DNA of 49,060 nt from assembly GCA_001777515.1 (NCBI GenBank), contig MFEF01000022.1:1-49060 (forward strand), given 5' to 3'. How positions within the stretch are numbered: position 1 is the first letter of the stretch; each line of letters begins with the position of its first letter. The position numbers and the translations under genes are program-made. The notes under the pieces are model-generated. The model did not search any database. It saw only the letters and a list, made by a program, of their open reading frames with translations, and was not told where the DNA came from. Positions 5,320 to 21,330 of the stretch are shown here, in pieces. This DNA is from Candidatus Doudnabacteria bacterium RIFCSPHIGHO2_01_48_18 (GTDB lineage Bacteria > Patescibacteriota > Doudnabacteria > UBA920 > 2-01-FULL-46-14).

Positions 5320-5925
5320 ATGGCAAAAAAAATCACCATCAAGGCCATCATCTTTGATCTCGGGGGCGTGGTAGTCCACGGCGGGTATATGGATTTCATA
5401 AAGCATTATTGCAAAGAGTGTTTGACTACGCTTGGGAAAAAGCGTCTGGCCCGGCTCGAACGGCAGGTAAACCTCGGGGAGATAACAGAAAATGAATTTT
5501 ATCGGCAAATACAGAAAATTTTCGGCGTCAAAGCCAATCCTGGGAAAATGCATGAGCTCATTGTCAGTAAGATGAAGACTGACCGGGGACTCGCTCATCT
5601 CATTCCGCATTTAAAAAAAGCCAAGGTGGCCATGTTTACTAACTCCATCGGCCATATGGCCCAGGATGTCCTCGACAGGCGCCGCCTCAATCACCACAAA
5701 TTTTTTGAAAAAGTTTTTGATTCGAGCGACCTCCATATAGCCAAGCCAGACGCTACTGCTTATCGGTTTGTTTTGCACAAGCTGGGGGTCAAACCGCACC
5801 AGGCAATCATGGTTGATGATCGTCCCCTCAACATCCGTGGAGCAAAGCGCGTGGGTATGCACGGCATTGTTTACAAAAATTCTCGTCAGTTCAAAACGGC
5901 CTTGAAAAAATATGAGCTCGTCTAA
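5320..5925 (+). CDS. HAD superfamily hydrolase (subfamily IA)
   Basis: 201-aa haloacid-dehalogenase-like phosphatase. Motif I is IIFDLGGVVV, with the nucleophilic Asp but Gly at the usual second acidic position, as in YihX-like members. A small helical cap follows, then motif II (MFTNS), the motif III Lys in AKPDATAY, and motif IV VDDRPLNIRGA. The family dephosphorylates sugar phosphates, nucleotides or similar small molecules; the substrate is not visible. It starts five bases after the glutaredoxin gene and overlaps trxB by 14 bases, so the three are probably one operon. Confidence 0.88.
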   Translation: MAKKITIKAIIFDLGGVVVHGGYMDFIKHYCKECLTTLGKKRLARLERQVNLGEITENEFYRQIQKIFGVKANPGKMHELIVSKMKTDRGLAHLIPHLKKAKVAMFTNSIGHMAQDVLDRRRLNHHKFFEKVFDSSDLHIAKPDATAYRFVLHKLGVKPHQAIMVDDRPLNIRGAKRVGMHGIVYKNSRQFKTALKKYELV

Positions 5926-6871
5926 CCAGGAAGCAAAACTAGCAATCATCGGATCCGGCCCGGCTGGTCTAACCGCCGGGATTTATGCGAGCCGCGCAGA
6001 GCTCGCGCCGCTGCTGTTTGCCGGCACTGCTTTTGGCGGTCAGCTGATGCTCACTACTGAGGTGGGCAACTACCCGGGCCATGAAACAGATATTATGGGG
6101 CCGGATCTCATACAAAAAATGATCGCCCAGGCCAAGCGTTTCGGCACAGAGATAATTTTTCAGAATGTAGACAAGGTAGATTTCACTGGCAGGCCCTTCA
6201 AGCTGTGGTCAGATAACAAAGAATATCAGGCTGAAGCAGTAATCATTGCCACGGGTGCCAATGCCATGTGGCTGGGTTTGAAATCAGAACAAAAGCTGAT
6301 TGGCCGCGGCGTCTCGTCCTGCGCTCCTTGCGACGGCTTCTTTTTCAAAAACAAAAAAGTCGCCGTGGTTGGTGGGGGAGATACCGCCATGGAAGAGGCC
6401 ACATTCCTGACCAAATTTGCCTCAGAGGTCACAGTGATTCACCGTCGCGACAGCTTGCGCGCCAGCAAAATCATGCAAAAGCGCGCCATGGATAACCCCA
6501 AGATCAAATGGATCTGGGACACGACTGTCGAAGAGGTTTTGGGCGCGGATGCAGTTAGTGGATTGAAACTCAAGAACCTAAAAACTGGCGCAGAATCAAA
6601 TTTCGAAGCGGATGGCCTATTTGTGGCCATCGGTCATATTCCGAACACGAAATTCCTCGAAGGCTCTGGCGTGGAGCTTGATGAAAAAGGGTATATCAAA
6701 GTTTTTGAGGGCAGCCCCTCGACTTCGCTCGGGACAAGCAAAACCAGCACCGAAGGCGTATTTGTTGCCGGCGACGTGCATGACCATGTATACCGCCAAG
6801 CCATCACCGCCGCCGCAGCCGGCTGTAAGGCAGCAATGGATGCAGAACGCTGGCTCGCGGAAAACAATTAA
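5912..6871 (+). CDS. trxB: thioredoxin reductase
   Basis: NADPH-dependent flavoenzyme that reduces thioredoxin or glutaredoxin-like partners in the cytoplasm. The 319-aa protein has the FAD-binding GSGPAGLTAGIYASRA (residues 14-29), the redox pair CAPC (137-140), the NADPH motif VVGGGDTAMEEA, and the C-terminal FAD motif GVFVAGDV. Between GYIKV and TEGVF there are about eight to ten extra residues (SPSTSLGTS and neighbours, near 268-277) encoded by a short repeat. The site is a surface loop in known TrxB folds, so activity is likely kept. It overlaps the HAD gene by 14 bases and converges with efp, overlapping by four. Confidence 0.95.
   Translation: MSSSNQEAKLAIIGSGPAGLTAGIYASRAELAPLLFAGTAFGGQLMLTTEVGNYPGHETDIMGPDLIQKMIAQAKRFGTEIIFQNVDKVDFTGRPFKLWSDNKEYQAEAVIIATGANAMWLGLKSEQKLIGRGVSSCAPCDGFFFKNKKVAVVGGGDTAMEEATFLTKFASEVTVIHRRDSLRASKIMQKRAMDNPKIKWIWDTTVEEVLGADAVSGLKLKNLKTGAESNFEADGLFVAIGHIPNTKFLEGSGVELDEKGYIKVFEGSPSTSLGTSKTSTEGVFVAGDVHDHVYRQAITAAAAGCKAAMDAERWLAENN
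6713..6739 (+). repeat. short in-frame repeat inside trxB
   Basis: The segment carries CCTCGACTTCGCTC and GGGACAAGC and encodes SPSTSLGTS, which has no counterpart in typical thioredoxin reductases. Its composition and the TTCGCT...CAAGC layout resemble the short dispersed repeats I associate with Patescibacteria genomes, and also the repeat before hrcA at 37805. Confidence 0.5.
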
Positions 6872-7434
6872 TTTGCTCGTTCGACGTATTCGCCTGTGTC
6901 AGTGTTGACCCGGATGCGGTCGCCTTCGTTGATGAACAGGGGAACGTTCACTGTCAGGCCGGTTTCCAGGGTCGCTGGCTTGGTGCCGCCAGTGGCTGTA
7001 TCGCCTTTGATCCCAGGAGGGGTAGACTTTACTTCTAAATCCACCTTGATCGGCAGCTCAATGCTGATTGGCTTTTCATCAAAATAGATAAGATGCACGT
7101 CAGTACTTTCCTTGAGATAACCGATTTTGTCAGCGGAAAGCTCTTGTCCGATGTCGATCGTCTCAAAGGTTTCGTTGTTCATAAAATGCGCGCCTTCGTG
7201 GTCAGCATAAAGGAATTGGGCTTTTTGCCTGGTAATGTCCGCGCGCTCAAAACTTTCACCTGATTTGGCAGAATACTCGACAACCTTGCCCGTGAGCAGG
7301 TTGCGCATTTTCATTTGCATAACAGGCTTGCGCTGCTGCATGCGCACAAACTGGGCGTGCATGATTTCGTGCGGCTGGCGGTTAAATACCATAACCACGC
7401 CTTTTTTGAGTTCAGAAAAGTCTAAATTCGACAT
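6868..7434 (-). CDS. efp: elongation factor P
   Basis: Translation factor that relieves ribosome stalling at consecutive prolines. 188 aa in three beta-barrel domains, with the C-terminal signature VNVPLFINEGDRIRVNTDTGEY. In the N-terminal domain the loop that reaches the peptidyl-transferase centre reads VRMQQRKPV, where canonical proteins have VKPGKGQA. Aligned without gaps, the normally modified Lys34 is Gln34 and Pro32 is Met, so lysylation by EpmA-type enzymes is impossible at that position. It follows rpsR with no intergenic bases and is the last gene of rpsF-ssb-rpsR-efp. Confidence 0.93.
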   Translation of the reverse strand: MSNLDFSELKKGVVMVFNRQPHEIMHAQFVRMQQRKPVMQMKMRNLLTGKVVEYSAKSGESFERADITRQKAQFLYADHEGAHFMNNETFETIDIGQELSADKIGYLKESTDVHLIYFDEKPISIELPIKVDLEVKSTPPGIKGDTATGGTKPATLETGLTVNVPLFINEGDRIRVNTDTGEYVERAN

Positions 7435-8870: not shown

Positions 8871-9926
8871 CTAGACGTTGAACTTGAACAGCATTATATC
8901 TCCATCCTGAACCACATACTCCTTGCCTTCAGATCTGGCCCAACCCTTTTCGCGCGCTTTAACCCAGCCCGGCGCTTCAACGAATTTATCATAGGCGACC
9001 ACGTCTGCTTTGATAAAGCCTTTTTCAAAATCCGTATGAATTTTGCCGGCCGCCTGTGGGGTTTTGTCGCCTTTTGTTATAGTCCAGGCTCTTGTTTCTT
9101 GTTCCCCGGCTGTGAAAAAAGTCTGCAAGCCCAGGGTTTGGTAGGCGGCTTTGATCAGGCGATCCAGCCCCGATTCTGCAAGACCCAGCTCTTTGAGATA
9201 ATGCTTGCGTTCATTTTCCGGGATTTGTGCGATTTCCGATTCAATCTGGGCATCGAGCGCGAGGAAATTGTCCGGCGCTGTCTCGCCCGATTTTACATTA
9301 GCCACGTACAGAATCGGTTTGTTCGTAAGAAATGGAAACTCAAACATGAATTTTTGTTCCTCTTCCGTTATCGAAACAGAGCTAGCCAGTCTCCCAGCGG
9401 ATAGCGCGTCAAAATATTTTTGAGCGAGCGCGGCTTTCACAATGTCTTCGTGCTTTCCAGATCTCGCCGATTTTTTGAAATTTTCATTTTTTTTCTCCAC
9501 AAGCTGCAGGTCCGCAAGAATCAGTTCGGTTTCAATGGTTTCGATATCGCGCTTGGGATCCACGTTGCCAGAAACGTGCGTGATATTTTTGTCTTCAAAA
9601 AACCGCACAACCTCAACGATCGCGTCCACCTCTCTGACGTGCGCCAAGAACTGGTTACCGAGACCTTCGCCTTTGTGCGCGCCGGCAACAAGGCCGGCAA
9701 TATCCTTGAACTCGATGACTGTGGGCACAGTCTTTTTGGATTTTTCAATCCTAGCCAGCACATCAAGCCGCGGTTCTGGCACGGTCACTACCCCGACGTT
9801 CGGCTCAATAGTGGCAAAGGGATAATTGGCAGCCTCAACCTGCAGCCCGGAAATGGCATTAAAAAGCGTGGATTTCCCCACGTTCGGCAGTCCGACGATT
9901 CCGACCGATAGTTTTGAACTCGACAT
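8871..9926 (-). CDS. ychF: ribosome-associated ATPase YchF/OLA1
   Basis: Obg-family P-loop protein that prefers ATP, binds ribosomes and affects translation and stress responses. 351 aa: P-loop GLPNVGKST (residues 12-20), switch region with [14 protein letters not shown], the DIAGLV G3 motif, a coiled insertion, YVANV in place of a GTPase NKxD motif, and a C-terminal TGS domain ending in DGDIMLFKF. Full length for the family. Its first 23 codons are also read, in another frame, as the C terminus of the adjacent serine recombinase, so the gene's 5' end seems to be the integration target of the neighbouring element while coding capacity is kept. Confidence 0.96.
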
Positions 9927-11502
9927 TTTGATTAGTTAAAGGGATATAACCAGATACTTGTAAAAGCTGTTTAGTGCCAATGATTTTTTCGACAGTATTC
10001 AGTAGTATCGCCCGTTTTGCTCCAAAGTTCAAGCCTTGTAAAGTCAGCTTTGCTTTTTGAGCGAATGTCTGTATTTCGCGCTGGCTTGGCAATTCGTTGA
10101 CTTGGCTTTGGCTGGCTTCACTCGCGGCATTTGCGATTTGCGTTTCCAACGCGCTAATCTTTTCTCTTACCGGCATAGTGTAGCCTTTGAGCTGTTCCAG
10201 AGTAAACAGGCTTGCGCCGTATGCTTTGTTATATCGTTCTTCCTGTCCTTTTAGCTTTTCAATCTCTTTTTTCAATGCCTCAATGTCCACAAAAGCAGTT
10301 TTGGCTTTGCTGTGCCTGGCCTTGAACCAGCGATTGACTTGCTCCGCCATGAGTTTTGACGAACTCATAAGCTGGGCAATCTTTTGCCAGACGAGCTGGT
10401 CGGCCAGTCTCGCATTGATACCTTTTTCCTCACAATTCGGCGGCAATGGGAAATTCAAAACTCTGTCGCTACAGCGATAATATAAGTTTGGTTTGTTTAC
10501 ATAGCCTTCGCCATGCCTCGGCCTACCACAAGGGCATACAATGCGTCCTGCGAGCAGGTAGTCATTCTTTTTGTTGCGCTGGCAAAGTGCAAAGTTTGTT
10601 TCCAGTTGCTTTCGGGCTTTCTGAAATATCTCTGGAGCAATAATCGCTGGCACAGGAATTGTTATCCATTCCTCTTTGGGTCTTTTCCTGCGGCTGGTCT
10701 TCTTCATTTTTTTGTATTTCTCATTTTTGAGCGGGTGTTCAGGAACTACGGCATAGGAACTGCCCCAGTGGGTCTCTCCGATATAAGCTCTATGTCGTAA
10801 AAGAGTGCTCAATGTGCTGGTGTTCCAAACGCCTCACTTGCTTTTGCGCGGCTTAATTTTCATTTCCTGTAATCTCCTAACTACGCCTCGCAAGGTCATG
10901 CCTTCGTTGGCAACCCACGAAAATATCATTGTGATAATCCGAGCTTCCTCTGGATTGATTTCATAATAGCCGTGCCTGTTGTCCAGCTTTGGGATATAGG
11001 TGTAGCCGTATAGAGGTTCACTAACCAAAATGTGTCCTTCTCTGACTTTGCGGAGCTTGCCGAGCCGAAAACGCTCGGTGATTTTTGCTCGTTCATATTC
11101 AGCAAACAAGCCTCTCACGCCATGCAAAATTTTGTCCTCGCTGTTTTTTGGAGCGGCAACAGTGATAAACATTATCTCAATGTCAGCTTCCCGCAATTCG
11201 TCCATAACGAGTTCCTGATATGAATAGCGGCGAGCCAAGCGGTCTGGGTCATAAATAAGCACTGCTTCCCAGACTTTGCTTTTTGCGTCTTGCCGCAGTT
11301 TATCAAGAGCGGGTCTGGCTAAAATGTCGCCGCTCCAGCCGTCGTCTGTATATTCCTCGACTATGGTATAGCTGTTTTTCTGGGCAAATTCCTGAAGCGA
11401 GTTTATCTGGTTTTGTATAGTTTGCTGTTCCTCTTGGGCTGACGTGGACACACGGGCATAAGTGGCAATCAGTCTTATTTGTTTGTCGGTTGTAGGATTC
11501 AT
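9859..11502 (-). pseudogene. large serine recombinase, interrupted by one TGA
   Basis: Site-specific recombinase of the resolvase/integrase type. The N-terminal part (10834-11502, 222 aa) has the catalytic resolvase fold, with YARVSTSAQEEQQT holding the nucleophilic Ser and YDPDRLARR. The rest (to 9859) has the recombinase domain (LRHRAYIGE), a zinc ribbon (CPCGRPRHGEGY...YRC) and a coiled coil. Both parts are in one frame, separated only by TGA at 10836-10834 after KPRKSK, where a CGA Arg codon would fit. The last 20 or so residues (ending [16 protein letters not shown]) are encoded inside ychF. Either a recent nonsense mutation or strain variation; the element is probably immobile unless read through. 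Confidence 0.85.
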
Positions 11503-11678
11503 TTTATTTTATGTTTTTCCATAAACTTTTTTATCTCGGACTTGGGTATGCGAAGCAAAGCTGTCTTGCCTGTGCCCAATTTGTAGCCCTTGAGACTGCC
11601 TTGTTTGAGCCAGCGCATTACAGTGCGGGGATGAACTCTAAAGAATTTTGCGACTTCTTCTCTTGTAAGAAATTCCAT
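11499..11678 (-). CDS. small excisionase-like HTH protein
   Basis: 59 aa, beginning MEFLTREEVAKFFRV, followed by RTVMRWLKQGSLKGYKLG and a short wing, which is the MerR/excisionase-type helix-turn-helix (HTH_17). Such proteins act as recombination directionality factors or regulators. The stop codon overlaps the recombinase start (ATGA at 11502-11499), so the two are translationally coupled. The ATG lies six bases after a TATAAT box, so the mRNA is probably leaderless. Confidence 0.85.
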   Translation of the reverse strand: MEFLTREEVAKFFRVHPRTVMRWLKQGSLKGYKLGTGKTALLRIPKSEIKKFMEKHKIK

Positions 11679-11684
11679 AAATTC

Positions 11685-11714
11685 ATTATAATCCTAATTG
11701 TTCATAGCTGTCAA
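11685..11714 (-). promoter_or_regulatory. consensus promoter of the HTH-recombinase operon
   Basis: TTGACA (11714-11709), 18-base spacer, TATAAT (11690-11685): both hexamers match consensus. The ATG follows six bases later. The promoter lies within the 3' end of the upstream 50-aa gene. Confidence 0.75.
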
Positions 11715-11846
11715 GTCGCTATCTTGCTTTAATGTTTCTTCAAAAAGAATGTCAAAAGCGTTATCCAGCCTCTCGCTATTGTCTGTATCGGCAAGCTGAT
11801 AACTCACACGCGGTTGATTTCGTTTTGTAGCTTTATTTGAAGTCAT
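11694..11846 (-). CDS. small protein of the element, 50 aa
   Basis: A frame of 50 codons starting ATG at 11846 overlaps the end of the replication-protein gene by 14 bases and ends just before the HTH gene. The protein starts basic and polar (MTSNKATKRNQPRVSYQLA) and becomes acidic and helical (NAFDILFEETLKQDSD). I do not recognise it. Tight overlap with the upstream gene supports translation by coupling; a role in control of replication or excision is only a guess from position. Confidence 0.5.
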   Translation of the reverse strand: MTSNKATKRNQPRVSYQLADTDNSERLDNAFDILFEETLKQDSDLTAMNN

Positions 11847-12999
11847 ACCTTTCAAACCTCTCTAATGCCGATTGTATGTCGCTGATGGCGTGCGATGGTG
11901 GCAAATCTTTGAGGGTCGTTGCCGAGGTTTTTATTTTGTCGGACAAGCGTGTCCAGCTTTTGCCTGTCCAGTTTTTTTCAATCTTGTTTCTGGTTTTTCT
12001 TACGCCACAGCGGTTTATGAGCGTATAGAGGCCGAGACTCGCCAACGCCGTATTTAGGGAATGTGCCTGTTTTTTCTTTTTTGAGTTTACGTCCCCAATC
12101 ATCGCGTCAAAAATTTCTTCAAGCGGCCGCTCCAATTTGAAAGCAAGCTGACTTGCTGGCGATTTTATTATCTCTTTCCAGCTCGCAAGCAACGCTTTTT
12201 TACAAAACTCCTTGTTAAACAACGCTTCAAAAGTTATACCCTTAATTTTTTCTCCCATCACCCTTGAAAGGAAAGTATTGAGACTTGGCTGTATTGCGAG
12301 CCGAACCTCAAAGCGCAGTATCTCTGGTTTTTGTTCGCCGCTCATGTTTTTAATCAGAGACTTCTCGTGTTGCAGTTTATCTTTATCTAAAGCCCTGTTC
12401 TTCGAGGCTTCAACGTCTTTGATTTTGTCGTAAAAAATGATGTTTGCAGACGAGGCGTAAAAATACAGAGCTTGGCCATCGTTGCCATAGTGCCTGACAT
12501 TCACGTCCTTTCGCTTGCCCACATCAGCCTTGTAAAGCGTGGAAATTGCGTCTTGGACAGTCAGGGGATGAGGAAGCGATATATTCTTGCCAAAATGGGC
12601 TTTTGCGACAACGGCCTTGCGGAGCATGGTTTCAAAAATTTTTATACCCATTCGGGACAGCCGAGATTTTAGCTCGCTAATAACTTTGTCAAAATCCGCA
12701 TCGTCCAATTCCTGAAGGCTGTTGTTGAACAGAAGCTTTGGGATTGAAAATTCGATATGCAGCTCATAAGTGGCCTTTATCCCGTCAAAACGCTGGTAGA
12801 CCGTGAGGCGAGGCATATAAATGCCTGCCTTTTTATCCGCAAGCGTTCTGTTCTGTTGGTATTTCATAAATTTGTGTCGGCCATATTGATGATTGAAACC
12901 TGCTTGGTTTTCTTGAATTATCAGCGCAGGGGTAAACAGGTTAGGGTCGCTAACCATAAAGTTCGGATATGCAATTTTGATAGCAATAGTATCGAGCAT
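11833..12999 (-). CDS. gene II-like phage/plasmid replication protein
   Basis: 388 aa, resembling the rolling-circle replication initiators of filamentous phages and related plasmids (gene II/X family). Supporting pattern: the start MLDTIAIKIAYPNF, a central SSANIIFYDKIKDVE block and an EILRFEVRLAI strand, in the order seen in that family. I could not assign the catalytic Tyr with certainty. It lies directly beside a region with a nested palindrome and direct repeats that could be its origin. Probably the maintenance or replication gene of the integrated element. Confidence 0.6.
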   Translation of the reverse strand: MLDTIAIKIAYPNFMVSDPNLFTPALIIQENQAGFNHQYGRHKFMKYQQNRTLADKKAGIYMPRLTVYQRFDGIKATYELHIEFSIPKLLFNNSLQELDDADFDKVISELKSRLSRMGIKIFETMLRKAVVAKAHFGKNISLPHPLTVQDAISTLYKADVGKRKDVNVRHYGNDGQALYFYASSANIIFYDKIKDVEASKNRALDKDKLQHEKSLIKNMSGEQKPEILRFEVRLAIQPSLNTFLSRVMGEKIKGITFEALFNKEFCKKALLASWKEIIKSPASQLAFKLERPLEEIFDAMIGDVNSKKKKQAHSLNTALASLGLYTLINRCGVRKTRNKIEKNWTGKSWTRLSDKIKTSATTLKDLPPSHAISDIQSALERFERYDFK

Positions 13000-13010
13000 A
13001 TAATCCTGCG

Positions 13011-13086
13011 TTTGTTGTCCTTTGGAGTATTCATATCTGTCTTTAGTTCCTCATTTGTTGTCCCGCAATTGCGGGGAATACTCCAA
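13011..13086. other. origin-like nested palindrome and direct repeats
   Basis: The 11-bp arms TTGGAGTATTC (13022-13032) and GAATACTCCAA (13076-13086) enclose a perfect 14-bp palindrome CCCGCAATTGCGGG (13062-13075). A 10-bp direct repeat TTTGTTGTCC lies at 13011-13020 and 13054-13063, the second copy running into the palindrome. Placed directly upstream of the replication-protein gene, this looks like a double-strand origin or an operator for that gene. Confidence 0.5.
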
Positions 13087-13100
13087 GCAAAAATTTCAGG

Positions 13101-13391
13101 TCATTCGCTGTATAGGCGATTCTTTAACATTTTCAGGTTGTCAAAAAACGACCGCGCTTTAACTTCAAGGCGGTCTGACCAGTAATCATCAACGACCTTT
13201 TCGATACCGATTTCTCGGCGAAAGATGAACTGGACTTTTTTGCGGTTGGTTTTATCCAATGAGACAAGTTCAAAGCCAGCCGAAACTAACGAAGCGGCCG
13301 CTCCTAAATCAAAGGTATGGAGATAGTTGTTGTAGTCGTCAGCAGAATTGCCGTTATCTTCTGCCCGACCTTTCTTTATTTTTTTGGCCAT
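13101..13391 (-). CDS. DUF5659-like protein
   Basis: 96 aa with a Lys-rich start and the block FDLGAAASLVSAGFELVSLDK followed by KKVQFIFRRE, the pattern of the small DUF5659 family found on phages, plasmids and integrated elements. Function unknown. The start codon lies within an inverted repeat (CCATAGAT at 13389-13396 and ATCTATGG at 13430-13437) that may be an operator. It precedes the origin-like region and the replication gene on the same strand. Confidence 0.7.
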   Translation of the reverse strand: MAKKIKKGRAEDNGNSADDYNNYLHTFDLGAAASLVSAGFELVSLDKTNRKKVQFIFRREIGIEKVVDDYWSDRLEVKARSFFDNLKMLKNRLYSE

Positions 13392-13466
13392 AGATAGTAA
13401 TGGTCTTTAATGATAATTTAGTAGCATTTATCTATGGCGAATTTCACGCACTGAAATATAAAATCA

Positions 13467-13497
13467 AAAAACCCCCCGTTTTATGGGGAGTTTTTGT
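13467..13497 (-). terminator. terminator after the 530-aa gene
   Basis: CCCC and GGGG arms around GTTTTAT; on the minus strand the GGGG arm side is followed by TTTTTTG. It lies about 35 bases beyond the stop of the 530-aa gene and about 75 bases before the DUF5659 start. Confidence 0.65.
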
Positions 13498-13532
13498 GGG
13501 TTTGATTAGCCTTCGGCTATAAACGAATTTCG

Positions 13533-15125
13533 CTATTGTTCTTCATAGACCTGGGGAGATTGCTTGTCCAAGTATTCTTTTACCCCTAAATCATCTTCGT
13601 TTTCGTCTATATTTTTTTTTCCGCTTTGTTCAGGCGGCGGAATTAAAGTAATTTTGATTTTATATGAATTTCCTTCCTTTTCGGGCGATGAGCGATAGGG
13701 ATAGAATGGGTCATAATCAAGCAAGAAGTAATTTTGCAGAGCTTTCGCTAACACCTCTTTTTGTTTTTTGTATTTATCCCTTGCTTCAGCGTCTTTAATT
13801 GTAAGCTCGCCGTTTACCTTTGCTAATACCTTTAAGAATACCCACGCCTCGCTTGGATTAGGATTTTTGCCTTTACCGACAAACCACATTTCTTTGTAAT
13901 TTACTTCGTGTTTAATATGCTTGACCTGAATGAAAATGTTTTCATCATCCAAAAATTTTATGGTAAAATTTTCCCATTTTGTTCCTGCTGGTAATTTATA
14001 TGGAAACCTATTAGTATTTTCTTTTTTAGCTTGGGCGATGGCTTTTAGCCCTTCTGGCAAGCCACCAATTTCCATTTGGCCTTTAATAATTTCAATTTTA
14101 TGTATTATTTCTTGGTCAGATTTACTACTCTCACTACCAGCTCTCTCTTGGTAAGTTTTTGCAAATTTGTCGTAAATTAGTTGAACTTTTCTGTAGGTCT
14201 CCGCAAAAAAATTGTGCTGAATGTCCTTAATCTCGTAATTCTCTGTTCCCTTGTGCCAATCAAAACAGCCATCCTTTTTGAAACCATCCAGTATGCCGTT
14301 AATTTCGGAAATCTTAAGTCCCGTAGTGGTAAGACGAGAAATGGGAACGAGTAATTTCGGTGGTTTATTGCTGTTTTCATAAATTCTCCATATCTCCTTC
14401 AAGACAAACAACTTATCGAACCACGCTTTTCGGGAAGTTGTATCAGTGAAATCCAAATTATTCACGGAGTTTCCGCTAACATGCGTTTCATCTTTGACCC
14501 GCTTTTTATAAACATCCATGAGCTTCTCATAAAATTTGGTAAATTTTATCCTATCAACCGGCACACTGACCTCGCTCTCCCACCGGTGGACATAATTATC
14601 TACAATATCAAACTCTCCTATATAGTGGTTATCTTTGAAATAACCAAGAGCTTTCCATCGGAACTCACAATACCTATCTCTCATATTGATTCCATCACCA
14701 GGCATAAGAGAAGAAAATCTGACAATCGAGGGTAGCAGAGGGATGATGACTTCACTTCCCGATGTCATTTGCAGTTCGTTCATTATGTCCGAAGCAACAT
14801 CAACAACTGCCAAAAAATTATCGCCCACCAGCATTTCCAAACTGCCGAAATGTCTAATATGGGCGTTGTTTAATGCTTGACGAAATTCATCAAGATTGAG
14901 GATTTTTACGCTGTAATTAAAACCTGTTTGATAATCCGGCTTTTTTAATATCTCAATCAGTCTATAATCCTTTGCCAACTTCTCGAAAATCTGGTCGTTG
15001 TCTTCCCTGGAAACAGATTTTTCCAATTCTCTGGTGTCAACCAAAACTGGACGGTCGCTCGGAGCTATCGCAAGCATTTCGTCTATAGTCTTGAGGATTA
15101 TCCAAATTTTGCCCTCTGGTGTCAT
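13533..15125 (-). CDS. unknown 530-aa protein of the mobile element
   Basis: I do not recognise this protein. From the ATG at 15125 (MTPEGKIWIILKTIDEML) it has a possible winged-helix-like N terminus, a middle part rich in aromatic and charged residues with VPVDRIKFTKFYEKLMDVY, a second helical region (WRIYENSNKPPKLLVPISRL), and a C-terminal half with KEMWFVGKGKNPNPSEAW and a charged tail. There is no signal peptide or membrane segment. An upstream in-frame ATG at 15185 would add 20 residues over the promoter region and is less likely. It is divergent from the HTH gene at 15204 and adjoins the restriction-modification genes, so a defence or regulatory role is possible but unproven. Confidence 0.6.
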   Translation of the reverse strand: MTPEGKIWIILKTIDEMLAIAPSDRPVLVDTRELEKSVSREDNDQIFEKLAKDYRLIEILKKPDYQTGFNYSVKILNLDEFRQALNNAHIRHFGSLEMLVGDNFLAVVDVASDIMNELQMTSGSEVIIPLLPSIVRFSSLMPGDGINMRDRYCEFRWKALGYFKDNHYIGEFDIVDNYVHRWESEVSVPVDRIKFTKFYEKLMDVYKKRVKDETHVSGNSVNNLDFTDTTSRKAWFDKLFVLKEIWRIYENSNKPPKLLVPISRLTTTGLKISEINGILDGFKKDGCFDWHKGTENYEIKDIQHNFFAETYRKVQLIYDKFAKTYQERAGSESSKSDQEIIHKIEIIKGQMEIGGLPEGLKAIAQAKKENTNRFPYKLPAGTKWENFTIKFLDDENIFIQVKHIKHEVNYKEMWFVGKGKNPNPSEAWVFLKVLAKVNGELTIKDAEARDKYKKQKEVLAKALQNYFLLDYDPFYPYRSSPEKEGNSYKIKITLIPPPEQSGKKNIDENEDDLGVKEYLDKQSPQVYEEQ

Positions 15126-15145
15126 CGTAATTTTTATAGTAATTC

Positions 15146-15174
15146 TTGCTTGTAAAAGTTTTATACTATATACT
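15146..15174 (+). promoter_or_regulatory. promoter of the HTH gene
   Basis: TTGCTT (15146-15151), 17-base spacer, TATACT (15169-15174), then a short leader with a GAGG ribosome site before ATG at 15204. It lies in the space shared with the divergent 530-aa gene. Confidence 0.6.
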
Positions 15175-15203
15175 GATGTTATCAAATGTGAGGTAAAAAA
15201 TCA

Positions 15204-15401
15204 ATGCCGAAAAAGCATAATTCAAACAAAATTCCAGAGCTACTCACCCTTAAAGAAGCGTGTGATATTTTGAAATGTCATCCGAATACCTTGCGGCAAT
15301 GGGACAAAAAAGGAATTTTGCCAGCTATCCGAATTGGGATTAAAAGAGTAATGCGGTATAGAAAACAGGATATAATGAAGCTATTAAAGCAGAAAAAATG
15401 A
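15204..15401 (+). CDS. MerR-like HTH DNA-binding protein
   Basis: 65 aa: a basic start, LLTLKEACDILKCHPNTLRQWDKKGILPAIRIG as a helix-turn-helix with wing, then KRVMRYRKQDIMKLLKQKK. This is the HTH_17/excisionase fold, a little different from the one beside the recombinase. It precedes the structured RNA and mod on the same strand and is divergent from the 530-aa gene, so it may control either the restriction-modification operon or its own intergenic region (inference). Confidence 0.8.
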   Translation: MPKKHNSNKIPELLTLKEACDILKCHPNTLRQWDKKGILPAIRIGIKRVMRYRKQDIMKLLKQKK

Positions 15402-15423
15402 ACTAAACTACAACTAATTTGTA

Positions 15424-15557
15424 TTTGCCTAAACCCTGTAGAGATACAGGGCATGGCAGAAAGTCCACTCTCATGCAGAGACGGTCATCCGTCTTGTCTA
15501 AGCCATGAGAGTGGCCGCTACCCGAAAGGGTGGTGGGGCAAGCGGGTGGCCTTTTTT
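15424..15557 (+). ncRNA. structured RNA upstream of mod (family not recognised)
   Basis: Four stems can be drawn without conflict: an outer TTGCC/GGCAA stem (15425-15429 with 15537-15541), a 7-bp hairpin with a GAGA loop (15434-15451), a perfect 11-bp stem CCACTCTCATG/CATGAGAGTGG (15465-15475 with 15504-15514) capped by a 6-bp hairpin (15479-15494), and a CTACCC/GGGTGG hairpin with a GAAA loop (15518-15533). Two GNRA loops favour the plus strand. GGCC (15513-15516) plus ACCC (15520-15523) can instead pair with GGGTGGCC (15544-15551), just before TTTTTT, forming a terminator that competes with the 11-bp and outer stems. It may be a free RNA or an attenuator of mod. Confidence 0.65.
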
Positions 15558-15585
15558 GTGCCCGAAAAAAATTATAATTACAATA

Positions 15586-17442
15586 ATGCCCAAAAATTAT
15601 AAAAAAGTTCAACTTACATCTTCTAATCTTGGTGAGAAAAAGATAGAGAAATTGCGTCATGTCCTGCCCGAAGCATTCAGCGAAAACAAAATTGACTGGG
15701 ACAAGCTCAAAGCCGCCTTGGACGGCCAGATTGACGGCAGGACGGAGAAGTTCAGCTTTGCCTGGGCGGGTAAAGGCAACGCCATCAAAAACGTGCTTGT
15801 GCCCAGTAAAGCCACGCTCCGACCCGCCAATGATGAAAGCGTGGATTTTGATAAAAGCAAAAATCTGTTCATTGAAGGCGACAACCTGGAAGTCCTAAAA
15901 CTCTTACAGAAAGCCTATTTTGAGCAGATAAAAATGATATACATTGACCCCCCGTATAACACAGGTGGTGATTTTGTCTACCACGATGATTTCAAAGCCC
16001 CGATTAAGGGTTATCTGGAACAGACGGGACAGGCCGATGCCGAGGGTAATAAACTCCAGACCAATACCGAAACGAGTGGCAGATACCATAGCGACTGGCT
16101 GACGATGATGTATCCTCGCCTTAAACTGGCGTGGAGTCTATTAAAACCCGATGGAGTAATCTTTATCAGCATAGACGATAACGAAGTCCATCACTTGCAG
16201 ATGATGTTGAATGAAATTTTTGGGGAAGAAAATGTAGAAACAATGGTTTGGCATAAGGTTGGTGATGATTCTGGAAGAATGAAAGTTACGTATAGATTTA
16301 GGTTGGAACACGAATACATACTCGTTGCCTACAAGAACAAAAATCAAGTTTTTTTCAAAAAATATAAAGAGGACAGAAATTATAAAAACATTTATACCAA
16401 TCCCGATAGCGACCGGCGTGGTGAGTATAAACAAGGGATAATTTCTAATACGGAAGAAAAGTCTAATAAAAAAAGTGAGAGATATTACACAGTTATTACA
16501 CCGTCTGGTAAGGAAATCACAAGACAATGGCGTGTTATTAAAGAAGAATTTGATAAGTTAAGAGCAGACAACCGAATTTACTTTGGTAAAAAAGGCGATT
16601 CTGTCCCGTCCCTTAAGGTGTTTATTAACGAACAAAAAGACGCAACGCCCATATCTATATTACAGGGACTGGGAACTGCAAAGACTGCGGGTATGGCACT
16701 GCTTAACATTTTTGATGGTAAAAGAGTTTTTGATTACCCAAAGCCAGTTGAACTTATTAAAAGGTTAATACAAATTTCCACGAAAGGGAGCGATTTAATT
16801 CTTGACTTTTTTGCTGGTTCTGGAGTTACCGCCCAGGCAATCCTTGAATTAAATCAAGAAGATAAAAACCATCGTAAATTTATTCTTGTTCAATTGCCAG
16901 AGCAGACCGAAATTAAAAGTGAAGCATATAGGGCTGGATATAAAACCATTGCCGATATTGCCAAAGAACGCATCCGCCGAGTTATTAAAGGTTATGGCAA
17001 CAAACCGACACCAATCAATGACGGCTTTAAGGTTTTTAAGCTGGGGCAGTCCAATTACGTGGAAAATCAGTTTGAGTATGACCCAGAAAAATCCGATGAA
17101 GAAAACCAAGCCGCCTTTGCCAAATACCTGGAAAAAGCGAAACAGTCATCGCTATTCCCCAAAGTCAAAGACCTGGATGTGGTGTATGAAAATATCGTCA
17201 AAGATGGTTTGTCTTTGAACTCTGTCATTACACAAAATAAATTAGGAAAGAACAGCATCTGCCAAGTTAAAGATGGCGACAGAGAGCTTTTAATCTCGCT
17301 GGATGCCAAGCTGGACAAGGACACGATAAAACTGCTGACGGACAAAGAATATAAGGGCAAGACCTTTGTTTGTCTGGACAACGCTTTGGATGACACTGCT
17401 AAAGCGAATTTAGGTTTGCACGTGGAATTGAAGACGATATAG
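15586..17442 (+). CDS. mod: type III restriction-modification DNA methyltransferase (Mod)
   Basis: Adenine-N6 methyltransferase that also carries target recognition for the type III enzyme. 618 aa from ATG at 15586; an upstream in-frame extension to 15505 runs through the structured RNA and is rejected. The catalytic DPPYNTGG (near residue 121) precedes the SAM-binding DFFAGSGVT (near 407), the beta-class order, with a long recognition region between. The C-terminal part (KVFKLGQSNYVENQF) is typical of Mod. It ends three bases before res, so the two are one operon. Confidence 0.93.
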   Translation: MPKNYKKVQLTSSNLGEKKIEKLRHVLPEAFSENKIDWDKLKAALDGQIDGRTEKFSFAWAGKGNAIKNVLVPSKATLRPANDESVDFDKSKNLFIEGDNLEVLKLLQKAYFEQIKMIYIDPPYNTGGDFVYHDDFKAPIKGYLEQTGQADAEGNKLQTNTETSGRYHSDWLTMMYPRLKLAWSLLKPDGVIFISIDDNEVHHLQMMLNEIFGEENVETMVWHKVGDDSGRMKVTYRFRLEHEYILVAYKNKNQVFFKKYKEDRNYKNIYTNPDSDRRGEYKQGIISNTEEKSNKKSERYYTVITPSGKEITRQWRVIKEEFDKLRADNRIYFGKKGDSVPSLKVFINEQKDATPISILQGLGTAKTAGMALLNIFDGKRVFDYPKPVELIKRLIQISTKGSDLILDFFAGSGVTAQAILELNQEDKNHRKFILVQLPEQTEIKSEAYRAGYKTIADIAKERIRRVIKGYGNKPTPINDGFKVFKLGQSNYVENQFEYDPEKSDEENQAAFAKYLEKAKQSSLFPKVKDLDVVYENIVKDGLSLNSVITQNKLGKNSICQVKDGDRELLISLDAKLDKDTIKLLTDKEYKGKTFVCLDNALDDTAKANLGLHVELKTI

Positions 17443-17445
17443 CTG

Positions 17446-20049
17446 ATGAAATTCCAATTTGACCCCAACCAAACATTTCAAATAGACGCCATCAAATCCA
17501 TCGTTGATGTTTTTGAAGGGCAGGAGAAAAATACATCCGCCCGCAATTTGGCTGGCGACTTGTTTGGTATTTACCCGAATTTTCTAAGCCTATCGGTAAA
17601 AGAAGTTTTGGCGAACGTAAAAAAAATCCAAGAGAAGAATGCAATTAAAAACGGCGGGATAATGCAGGACTTGGATTTTTCTATTGAAATGGAAACAGGG
17701 ACAGGTAAGACTTACGTTTACCTCCGCACGATATTTGAGCTTAACAAAAAATACGGCTGGAAAAAATTTATCGTGATTGTCCCGTCCGTCGCTATCCGCG
17801 AGGGCGTGATTAAGACCTTGCAGATTACCCAGGAACATTTTAAGGGACTTTATGATAGCGTGCCGTATCGTTTTTACGAATACCAGTCCAAGAACATCTC
17901 CCAGGTGCGGCATTTTGCCGCAAGTGGCAACATTGAAATAATGGTGATGACTATCCAATCTTTTAATGCGGACGCAAGGGTATTGTATACAGAAAGAGAC
18001 CAGATGCAGGGCGAACAGCCAATTACTTTTTTGCAGAAGGCCAACCCGATACTGATTCTCGATGAGCCACAGAATATGGAAGGCGACGCCACGCAGGAAC
18101 GGTTAAAGCGGTTTAATTCTTTGTTCCGTTTGCGGTATTCTGCCACCCACAAAACCTTACATAACCTGATGTATCAGCTTGCTCCTCACCACGCCTATAA
18201 GATGGGTTTGGTAAAAAAGATTGAAGTGTTTTCCGTGTTGGATAGCGACGATGCTCCCAGTGTTTACGTAAATTTGATTGATGTAACCTCTCTCCGCAAT
18301 ACTTTAAAGGCCAAACTGGGGGTTACTGCGATTGATGCGACAGGCAAAGTCGCCAAGAAGAAAATTACAGTTAAACAAGGCGATGACTTAAAAGAAAAGG
18401 CCAACAATCCTGCTTACAAAGGTTTTGTAGTGGAAGCTCTAACTGCCAATGCTCCTGACTTTGGCTCTGTTGGCTCAATCCGTTTTACAAATAACATTAC
18501 AGTTAAGATTGGCGATAGCATAGGCGGCAACAAGGAAGAGATAATGAAGCGGCAGATTGCCGAAACCGTGCGACTACATTTTGAAAAAAAGCAGAAAATG
18601 ACTGAACTGGGTATTAAAGTATTGTCTCTGTTCTTCATTGACCGAGTGGACAGTTACGTGAAAAATGATGGCTTTATTCGAAAAACCTTTATTATGGAAT
18701 TTAATCGTCAGAAAAAAGAATTTGGGTTTGATAGTTTAGATGTGGATACTGTGCACAAAGGCTATTTTGCGATGAGAAATAACGAGTATTTAGAACGAGA
18801 GGCGGCCATAGCTGAAAATCAGGAAGCCTACGAACTGATAATGAAAGAAAAGGAGCGTCTACTGTCCTTTGATGAGCCGACAGAATTTATTTTTTCCCAC
18901 TCCGCACTAAAGGAAGGCTGGGACAATCCGAATGTATTTAATATCTGCACGCTAAATGCCACGGCTTCCGTTATGAAAAAACGACAAGAGATTGGCCGTG
19001 GTATGCGACTATGCGTCAACCAAGAAGGAATAAGGCAGTTTGTCAGACAAATCAATCTCTTGTCTGTTGTGGCAAATGAAAGCTATAGCGATTATGTCGG
19101 CCAGTTGCAAGCCGAGTTTATAGAAGATGGTATCTACAAAGCCCCACCCGCTCCCAGCAATGCCAGGGGCAGGATTCCCATAAAACTCAAAAAGAACTTT
19201 CAAAAGGATAATAATTTTAAGCAACTATGGAACAGAATATCTCGCAAGACCCGCTACTTTGTTACGGTGAACAGCCAAAAGCTCATTGATGGATGTGCTG
19301 AACATATTGCCAGACTTAACATTCCCAAGCCACAAATCAAGGTGGAGCGGGCAGGACTGGATATTACAATCGAAGGCATAGAAGCCCGTCGTTTAGGCAG
19401 TGATTCGCAAAAAATCACAGACAAGAAAAAACTGATTGATTGCATTAACTTTATCAAAGAAGAAACCAAGCTAACCCGTAACAGCGTAGTCGAAATTCTG
19501 GCTAAAGCAGGTAACTTTAACTCTTTAATCAACAATCCCGACAGGTTCAGTTTTGACGCCGCCCAAATTATAAAAACTGAACTGATAAAAAATTATATTG
19601 AACAAATAGCTTACGAGATAATTCCCGAAATCTACCATGCAGACGAGTTTAAGGATGACGATGGTTATCAAGATTCGGTGTGTAATGTTGACCGCTCTAT
19701 TTACGATGCAATAGTCTACGACTCCAACGTGGAAAAAGACTTTGCCCTTAAACTTAATGGCGATGAGCGGATAAAGCTATTTATCAAATTGCCTAATTGG
19801 TTCAAGATAGAAACCCCGCTCGGCGGCTACAATCCCGATTGGGCGATTGTTACGGTGAAGCGTGATTTGCACGGTCAGGAAAGCGACGAGAAAATCTTTT
19901 TTGTCATTGAAACCAAAGGCGATGTTGACAATTTAAGACCTATTGAAGCAGGTAAAATCCATTCAGCCAAAAAGCACTTTGAAGTCATACACGTTAAATA
20001 CAGCGAAGTAGAAAGTTACCAGCAGTTTACCGAACAACTAATTGTATGA
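17446..20049 (+). CDS. res: type III restriction enzyme, helicase-nuclease subunit (Res)
   Basis: ATP-dependent subunit that translocates or switches on DNA and cleaves when two unmethylated sites are met. 867 aa: SF2 helicase with Walker A ETGTGKT (83-89), DEPQ box (206), motif VI EIGRGMRL, then a C-terminal PD-(D/E)xK nuclease with NPDWAIV (Asp near 798) and IETKG (Glu near 822, Lys 824). All key residues are present, so the enzyme looks intact. It is coupled to mod and followed after 13 bases by a small acidic gene. Confidence 0.93.
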   Translation: MKFQFDPNQTFQIDAIKSIVDVFEGQEKNTSARNLAGDLFGIYPNFLSLSVKEVLANVKKIQEKNAIKNGGIMQDLDFSIEMETGTGKTYVYLRTIFELNKKYGWKKFIVIVPSVAIREGVIKTLQITQEHFKGLYDSVPYRFYEYQSKNISQVRHFAASGNIEIMVMTIQSFNADARVLYTERDQMQGEQPITFLQKANPILILDEPQNMEGDATQERLKRFNSLFRLRYSATHKTLHNLMYQLAPHHAYKMGLVKKIEVFSVLDSDDAPSVYVNLIDVTSLRNTLKAKLGVTAIDATGKVAKKKITVKQGDDLKEKANNPAYKGFVVEALTANAPDFGSVGSIRFTNNITVKIGDSIGGNKEEIMKRQIAETVRLHFEKKQKMTELGIKVLSLFFIDRVDSYVKNDGFIRKTFIMEFNRQKKEFGFDSLDVDTVHKGYFAMRNNEYLEREAAIAENQEAYELIMKEKERLLSFDEPTEFIFSHSALKEGWDNPNVFNICTLNATASVMKKRQEIGRGMRLCVNQEGIRQFVRQINLLSVVANESYSDYVGQLQAEFIEDGIYKAPPAPSNARGRIPIKLKKNFQKDNNFKQLWNRISRKTRYFVTVNSQKLIDGCAEHIARLNIPKPQIKVERAGLDITIEGIEARRLGSDSQKITDKKKLIDCINFIKEETKLTRNSVVEILAKAGNFNSLINNPDRFSFDAAQIIKTELIKNYIEQIAYEIIPEIYHADEFKDDDGYQDSVCNVDRSIYDAIVYDSNVEKDFALKLNGDERIKLFIKLPNWFKIETPLGGYNPDWAIVTVKRDLHGQESDEKIFFVIETKGDVDNLRPIEAGKIHSAKKHFEVIHVKYSEVESYQQFTEQLIV

Positions 20050-20062
20050 CTAAAAAAATAAT

Positions 20063-20224
20063 ATGGAAAATGAGTTTTCGGATGACGAAATAGACGAAGA
20101 TATTGCCGAACTGATGGAAACTTACGATTTGGATGAGGACACGGCCGAACGGGTCAGGGATATTATGGACGAATACGGCGTTGACGAGGATGACGCCGTT
20201 GAACTTGAGGACGCTGGGTTGTAA
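20063..20224 (+). CDS. highly acidic 53-aa protein with internal repeat
   Basis: MENEFSDDEIDEDIAELM begins a 53-residue protein with 25 Asp/Glu and only two Arg (net charge about -23). Two similar helical units can be aligned: ELMETYDLDEDTAERV and DIMDEYGVDEDDAVELE. It starts 13 bases after res and is followed by a terminator, so it is the last gene of the mod-res operon. I do not know the family. Such charge suits a DNA-mimic or a binding partner of Res; this is speculation from composition and position. Confidence 0.65.
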   Translation: MENEFSDDEIDEDIAELMETYDLDEDTAERVRDIMDEYGVDEDDAVELEDAGL

Positions 20225-20243
20225 ATAACGCTATTCTAACAAA

Positions 20244-20265
20244 GGCTCCCAAATGGGAGTTTTTG
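20244..20265 (+). terminator. terminator of the mod-res operon
   Basis: CTCCC (20246-20250) pairs with GGGAG (20255-20259) around AAAT and is followed by TTTTTG. Confidence 0.75.
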
Positions 20266-20299
20266 ATTTGTGGAAAACGGTAGCGACGTTAGGTGATTT

Positions 20300-20317
20300 T
20301 TGATAAAATGGTATCAA
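20300..20317 (+). promoter_or_regulatory. operator-like repeat and extended -10 before dinD
   Basis: The inverted repeat TTGATA (20300-20305) and TATCAA (20312-20317) overlaps a TGATAAAAT extended -10 (TAAAAT at 20304-20309). A repressor bound here would cover the promoter. The start codon of dinD lies 26 bases downstream of the -10 box. Confidence 0.45.
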
Positions 20318-20335
20318 CATTAAAAATTACAATTT

Positions 20336-21169
20336 ATGACTAACGAAATTACGGCACCTCACAAAGACTTTGAGAGCATAAAAAAAATTGACGAGAATGG
20401 AGTTGAGTATTGGGAAGCTCGTGAATTGCTACCTATTTTAGGCTATGAAAAGTGGGAAAAAGCAGAGGAAGTTATTGCAAGAGCCGCTCGCGCCTGCCTA
20501 AATAGCGGCCAGAATGTGGATAACCATTTTCACCAAACGGGGAAAATGGTCAAAATTGGCTCAAATACAGTAAGAAAAGTAAGGGATTATAAGCTCGACC
20601 GCTATGCTTGCTATTTAGTCGCCCAGAACGGAGACTCCAATAAACCTGAAATAGCGATGGCTCAAACCTACTTTGCTATTCAGACCAGAAGGCAGGAGAT
20701 TTTTGACCAACTGCCAGATGTTGCAAAGAGATTATTCATCAGGAACGAAGTGTCTGACCATAATAAAAAATTGTTCAAAACAGCCAAAGAAGCAGGGGTA
20801 AATAAATTCGGTTTGTTTAATGATGCTGGTTATCAAGGTCTATACGGCTCGTCATTGTCCGAGGTTGAACAAAAGAAAGGAATTAAAAAAGGAGAGTTAT
20901 TGGATAGGGCTGGCTCAACAGAACTGGCCGCAAATCTATTTCGTATTACACAAACTGACGAAAAGATTAAGAAGGGCAATATCAAAGGCGAGACTGCGGC
21001 CACGAGTGCTCATTTTATGGTTGGAGGCAAAGTAAGGCAGACTATAAAAGATATTGGCGGAGAGACACCAGAAAACTTGCCAGCCGAAAGGCATATCAAA
21101 GAGGTAAAGAAAGAGTTGAGGCAACTTGAAAAAGTGGAAAGAAAAAAACTCAAAGGCCAGTCAGTGTGA
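20336..21169 (+). CDS. dinD: DinD-like DNA-damage-inducible protein D
   Basis: 277 aa of the DinD family. The N-terminal half is BRO-N/KilA-N-like, with EYWEARELLPILGYEKWEKAEEVI and KLDRYACYLVAQNGD. The C-terminal half holds DHNKKLFKTAKEAGV, GLYGSSLSEVEQKKGIKKGELLDRAGSTEL and a basic coiled tail. E. coli DinD inhibits RecA-mediated strand exchange and is SOS-induced; the same is inferred, not shown, here. Homologues often accompany restriction-modification genes on mobile elements, as here. A clear terminator follows. Confidence 0.88.
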   Translation: MTNEITAPHKDFESIKKIDENGVEYWEARELLPILGYEKWEKAEEVIARAARACLNSGQNVDNHFHQTGKMVKIGSNTVRKVRDYKLDRYACYLVAQNGDSNKPEIAMAQTYFAIQTRRQEIFDQLPDVAKRLFIRNEVSDHNKKLFKTAKEAGVNKFGLFNDAGYQGLYGSSLSEVEQKKGIKKGELLDRAGSTELAANLFRITQTDEKIKKGNIKGETAATSAHFMVGGKVRQTIKDIGGETPENLPAERHIKEVKKELRQLEKVERKKLKGQSV

Positions 21170-21198
21170 AGGATGGCTCGATTGCCCTTGAGACAACC

Positions 21199-21223
21199 AA
21201 AAAAGCGCGATATGCGCTTTTTT
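21199..21223 (+). terminator. terminator after dinD
   Basis: AAAAGCGC and GCGCTTTT arms around GATAT, with T/A runs on both sides, 30 bases after the dinD stop. It is the last recognisable feature of the element. Confidence 0.75.
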
Positions 21224-21330
21224 CATACTAATGCCGCTTGTAGGCAGGGATTTTGATTTCAAAGGAAAAGGGTATCAATTTGGGGTTTGTTTCAATAACT
21301 TGATGTCGGTTTGTGTCCTTACCATACCGA

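Follow-up and report, generated by a model that had tools for sequence, protein, structure and literature searches.

Closest described systems

In transcription attenuators and in riboswitches with a terminator platform, the leader of a gene can fold into competing helices, one of which is a terminator helix directly before a U-tract. The RNA considered here belongs to a family, LOOT, whose original description is said to be a 2017 paper in Nucleic Acids Research. LOOT is catalogued in Rfam as RF03000, where its type is 'Gene; sRNA' and not a cis-regulator, and it is also mentioned in Rfam papers. Rivas (2020) reported 28 'cross-covariations' in LOOT, that is, extra covarying pairs inside a helix; we rejected them as evidence of a switch because their definition does not say so. 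In the literature searched (the original LOOT paper lay outside the search), we found neither a published LOOT function nor any account of LOOT as a cis switch whose exchanged strand is programmable.

At the level of tertiary structure, the closest described element is the 11-nt GAAA-tetraloop receptor, CCUAAG/UAUGG (PMC11381326). LOOT resembles it in the CCUAA and AUGG strands, which are near-invariant in our alignment A4 (see below), and in the GAAA loop of hairpin P4, which is part of the Rfam consensus. The receptor variant studied with U-to-C at position 9 (UACGG; PMC11381326) also occurs in some LOOT copies. In contrast, the receptor G-U pair is A-C or C-U in LOOT: motif positions 6 and 7 co-vary, and of 175 copies, 132 have A-C and 25 have C-U. 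By analogy with the receptor, the P4 GAAA loop may dock into the receptor-like motif formed by P1 and P2.

A LOOT copy without a separate P5 hairpin

The window (the whole 49,060-nt stretch of Candidatus Doudnabacteria DNA that was analysed) matches RF03000 at positions 15426–15551 of the plus strand. The score is 73.3 bits against a cut-off of 46.4 (E 5e-12; cmscan, Rfam 15), the score test for LOOT is passed and the model is aligned end to end. By its score and core structure, this RNA is a member of the already catalogued LOOT family. The original prediction had described an RNA without a known class, a view that the confident RF03000 match overturns by that prediction's own reckoning. The fold that it reported is real: the region 15424–15557 folds with −66.4 kcal/mol (z = −6.4) and none of 200 shuffled sequences was equally stable. 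The perfect 11-bp stem, the two GNRA loops and the run of six T residues at 15552–15557 had been seen correctly as well.

The copy in the window shares with the family the whole model and all of its core elements (RF03000 alignment). Helix P1 (15426–15429 with 15455–15458) and helix P2 (15434–15440 with 15445–15451, GAGA loop) enclose the conserved internal loop CCUAAA/CAUGG, present here as CCUAAaC...GCAUGG, and this P1/P2 region spans 15426–15458 and corresponds to near-invariant A4 columns. The 5′ strand of P3, denoted A1 (CCACUCUCAUG, 15465–15475), forms the 11-bp stem with the 3′ strand, A′ (15504–15514), both in the RF03000 alignment and in folding of the window. Hairpin P4 (15515–15536), a covarying 8-bp helix in relatives, carries the GAAA tetraloop at 15524–15527. 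A separate P5 hairpin with a stable tetraloop is absent from the window copy according to the RF03000 alignment; the P5 columns fall instead on the strand 15536–15551, and several of the resulting pairs are non-standard. The same layout is found in other LOOT copies (L002 and L163). Since the curated score is still well exceeded without P5, we treated this hairpin as an optional part of LOOT, and the window copy is a LOOT subclass that does without it.

The region had also been proposed to be non-coding. No coding signal is apparent across relatives, although open frames do cross the window RNA on both strands. Coding inside LOOT was rejected, as the three forward frames starting from the P1 AUGG are open equally often in relatives.

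Distribution of LOOT

All of the approximately 180 LOOT relatives are found in Patescibacteria or in unnamed metagenome-assembled genomes. Among 379 genomes sampled across the phylum, 83 have LOOT, with at most seven copies per genome, as do 31 of 98 genomes nearer to that of the window; none of the 14 control genomes has it. The genome of the window (0.92 Mb) has three copies, one of which (on contig C18) scores lower and, as judged by inspection of its sequence, is without the normal 5′ motif. In named genomes, matches to a strict DNA pattern are mostly in Patescibacteria (Parcubacteria, Microgenomates, Doudnabacteria and others), and none of the pattern matches in loci named as other phyla passed the structural filter. 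Three IMG/VR viral contigs match the LOOT pattern and two of these pass the structural finder.

For comparative analysis, 187 distinct copies were gathered by a pattern requiring the 5′ motif, a P3 of at least 8 bp and the P4 GAAA loop; these three features are therefore not usable as evidence on this set. Covariation was assessed on A4, a MAFFT alignment of 28 diverse copies that was not fitted to structure. The A4 rows were picked among copies that passed a duplex-energy filter (175 of 187), which introduces a mild bias toward pairing; the strand-swap test on 186 copies described below is free of this bias.

A covarying helix before the U-tract

The family itself is known from Rfam; the comparison of relatives adds a long-range helix, the leader position of LOOT, a repeat at the start codon and a proposed cis-switch role. 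The helix, the U-tract, the spacing to the start codon and the repeat all lie outside the Rfam model. In the helix, which we call the T-helix, the strand at the tip of P3 pairs with the strand just 5′ of the conserved U-tract. In the window these are the T5′ arm GGUCAUCCGUCUUGUC (15483–15498) and the T3′ arm GGGCAAGCGGGUGGCC (15536–15551), onto which Rfam aligns P5, and the U6 tract follows directly at 15552–15557. A competing terminator-like helix had indeed been anticipated here, but with a different and shorter pairing: the T-helix has −22.6 kcal/mol, or some −29 to −31 when its flanks are included, versus −12.5 kcal/mol for the GGCC/ACCC hairpin, which we rejected as the weaker of the two.

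Comparison of relatives supports the T-helix. In 186 copies, the two strands of the same copy pair with −24.1 kcal/mol, as against −14.6 when strands are swapped between copies and −11.4 when they are shuffled. In A4 the helix comprises nine consecutive column pairs that are 98% paired, with two-sided changes in seven of the nine, and its covariation is 0.69 compared to 0.26 ± 0.03 for shuffled and at most 0.18 for slid columns. The 8-bp P4 helix covaries in the same alignment. The U-tract is near-invariant (at least four U among the first five nucleotides in 149 of 159 copies). With its GC-rich core followed by the U-tract, the T-helix form thus looks like an intrinsic terminator in sequence. 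A terminator scan called no site at LOOT, because the two arms of the T-helix are far apart.

As one arm of the T-helix lies inside the P3 loop, the two helices are either mutually exclusive or combined in a pseudoknot. Their energies are fairly balanced: with the two states folded separately, the T-helix minus P3 difference has a median of +2.2 kcal/mol and a middle half of about −1 to +4.4 kcal/mol over 175 copies, and the window values are −67.0 (T-helix) and −64.3 kcal/mol (P3), all by nested folding, which cannot tell exclusion from a pseudoknot. Coexistence of P3 and the T-helix as a pseudoknot could make the latter part of one stable fold.

A repeat of the P3 strand at the start codon

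In part of the family, the P3 5′ strand recurs downstream. An exact piece of at least 9 nt of a copy's own P3 5′ strand is repeated in 37 of 183 copies, while about one is expected from swapping strands between copies. Most of these repeats, denoted A2, have their ends at −3 to +6 nt relative to the ATG, and when the search is anchored at the start codon, 42 of 161 copies reach a score of 6 versus 5.7 expected. Overall, A2 is present in about a fifth to a quarter of LOOT copies and about three quarters are without it; in the window copy none was found. Identity between A1 and A2 stops at the P3 borders, and the 37 aligned cases have 36 different cores. Where A2 exists, its pairing with A′ is nearly as strong as P3 itself (−17.8 versus −18.0 kcal/mol). 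With A1 present a second time as A2, A′ has two possible partners, which is the logic of strand exchange.

Elsewhere in the loci, A2-like sites are not clearly in excess (28 versus 17 at 10 nt and 9 versus 5 at 11 nt), which argues for action in cis; trans targets of the P3 strand were set aside, as the DNA flanking LOOT is not clearly enriched in them. A search of the genome to which the window belongs for P3-strand sites returned nothing except LOOT itself and one site with one mismatch. At one locus (L113), part of the P3 strand (AAAACTGGTCA) precedes the ATG of a divergent frame on the minus strand, some 0.4 kb upstream, possibly by chance.

LOOT as the probable leader of a transcription unit

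Of 175 copies, 163 have a same-strand ATG frame of at least 40 codons that begins soon after LOOT. For rough comparison, 74 of the 175 have a divergent frame beginning in the 150 nt upstream. The start codon lies a median of 84 nt past the P4 GAAA (middle half 75–93 nt) and a median of 40 nt past the U-tract. In 54 of 105 copies, a TATAAT-like box followed after 6–7 nt by a conserved ACAAYT stands just upstream of LOOT. Of 156 copies, 111 have a nearest upstream gene that is directed away from LOOT. Taken together, the start-codon spacing, the promoter and the divergent upstream genes indicate that in most cases a transcription unit begins with LOOT and carries it as a leader.

In the window, LOOT precedes the gene for a type III modification methyltransferase, mod (15586–17442, plus strand; PADLOC MTase_III, E 4e-175; PF01555). 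Its start codon lies 35 nt past the LOOT match and is supported by the MTase_III alignment, which begins at residue 6. The gene for the restriction subunit, res, follows at 17446–20049 (plus strand; PF04851, PF19778). Just upstream of LOOT is a gene for a small HTH_17/MerR-like protein (15204–15401, plus strand; PF12728, E 4e-13), ending 25 nt before it. Given this gene and the lack of a clear −10 box at the usual spacing, the window copy may sit inside an operon and may be part of the HTH_17 transcript.

Integrated element and downstream genes

The LOOT copy in the window is located on an insertion of about 11.3 kb that relatives lack: in a relative of the same family, about 60 bp separate the genes that flank it here, ychF and a phosphomannomutase-like gene. 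Based on blastn synteny with two related genomes (G001 and G003), the element spans approximately 9925–21258. Between the flanking genes it holds a recombinase, DUF5659, HTH_17, LOOT, type III mod and res, and Bro-N. The large serine recombinase (9859–11502, minus strand; PF00239, PF07508, PF13408) is spread over two ORFs (9859–10812 and 10834–11502), as if frameshifted or misassembled. A 9-nt direct repeat, ATTTTGATT, is present at both ends of the insertion (9925 and 21250) and may be either the attachment core or a chance occurrence.

Genes downstream of LOOT are diverse (n = 139). They include eight N6_N4 and three D12 methyltransferases, as well as zinc-ribbon, lipoprotein, nuclease and membrane proteins, and one recurring type, of which one member was searched, matches the PADLOC candidate PDC-S11. 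The original prediction had tied the RNA to the type III methyltransferase. A specific link with mod was rejected, since methyltransferases are a minority of downstream genes (8 of 139 for the N6_N4 type) and mod is only one of many types. Among 239 proteins encoded by the two nearest upstream ORFs of each locus, large serine recombinases occur 27 times and RVT_1 in four proteins. On one viral contig (L073), a reverse transcriptase (PADLOC RT/DRT-like, RVT_1; 5794–7071, minus strand) stands directly upstream of LOOT and a PDC-S11-like gene downstream.

LOOT as a putative cis-acting switch

A cis-acting attenuator or translational switch is the reading of LOOT best supported by these comparisons, which suggest that LOOT is probably a 5′ leader controlling the next gene in cis, in the window the type III mod/res operon of the integrated element. 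The attenuator or leader layout proposed earlier is thus backed by some 180 relatives, but that reading was incomplete. In one state, P3 would be formed, with the GAAA loop of P4 docked in the receptor-like motif of P1 and P2, so that polymerase would read on and the start codon would be free. In the other, the T-helix would form and transcription would end at the U-tract; where A2 is present, the release of A′ from P3 would in addition let it pair with A2 and block the translation start. Because A2 is absent from the window copy, only the transcription-stop half could operate there. Any signal that sets the balance is presumably read through a protein or folding kinetics rather than a classic small-molecule pocket, given how few bases are conserved outside the tertiary motif and the helices.

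Like attenuators and riboswitches, LOOT has apparently competing helices, a terminator-like helix before a U-tract, a leader position and the strand-exchange logic of A1, A′ and A2. It differs in that its terminator arms are about 40–70 nt of structured RNA apart and cross P3, in that the exchanged strand varies freely from copy to copy, and in that the downstream genes have no common pathway. A broader reading, in which mobile elements of Patescibacteria use LOOT as a portable, sequence-programmable switch set before varied cargo, with the split-arm terminator opposed to P3 and strand exchange added where A2 is present, is tentative, and we consider it somewhat less than an even bet. If LOOT is a true cis switch, it would be a regulatory device defined by base-pairing logic, the exchanged strand being different in every copy, and would govern accessory genes: those for DNA methyltransferases, those for surface and zinc-ribbon proteins, and candidates for phage defence. 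The hosts are Patescibacteria, in which gene regulation is almost unknown, and the cargo in the window is a DNA-modifying phage-defence gene. The switch model predicts the effects of specific mutations, which are open to a reporter assay.

The pseudoknot geometry also fits a free-standing sRNA, in which LOOT's own promoter and the U-tract would bound a transcript of about 150 nt and P3 and the T-helix would form a stable pseudoknot acting in trans or as an RNP scaffold. We regard this as less likely, even though many copies have a promoter with the ACAAYT start, nearly all have a terminator-like 3′ end, the tertiary-contact motif is present and Rfam assigns the sRNA type: the short distance from the U-tract to the start codon is in most copies too tight for a second promoter, A2 is local to the start codon without a clear excess of sites elsewhere in the loci, and a repeat bounded by P3 is not explained by a trans function. 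The same docking motif, combined with the leader position, two balanced competing helices and the terminator-like platform, would suit a ligand-binding riboswitch whose aptamer is the docked P1/P2–P4 fold and which controls cargo genes of mobile elements. Here the conservation pattern points the other way, as the conserved bases are confined almost entirely to the receptor-like motif, the GAAA loop, an A-rich linker, helix ends and the U-tract, so that no pocket is apparent from A4; together with the unrelated pathways of the downstream genes, this makes such a riboswitch quite improbable.

Least probable, and already disfavoured, is a DNA-level feature of integrative elements, that is, a recombination site or repeat, with the A1/A2 repeat as a by-product of insertion. 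The position of the window copy inside an insertion agrees with it, as do about 27 loci with a large serine recombinase gene as one of the two closest upstream. Most loci, however, have no adjacent recombinase, the A2 identity ends at the P3 borders, and the compensatory changes in P4 and the T-helix indicate selection on RNA pairing.

Multiple and contig-terminal copies

Several loci carry more than one copy. An Uhrbacteria contig (L149) has three LOOT pattern matches within about 3 kb, and one genome (G373) has seven copies. At 14600–15400 of locus L069, two LOOT copies stand in tandem, each before a small paralogous gene (products beginning MPKFKIDFWF and MPKYKIDIWF), like duplicated LOOT-plus-gene units; a third paralogue of these genes follows LOOT in L052. 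In another genome (G139), LOOT is found at both ends of one contig (C25, locus L262), and a second contig (C88) begins at a LOOT of equal score, a layout that looks as if LOOT marked the edge of a repeated element.
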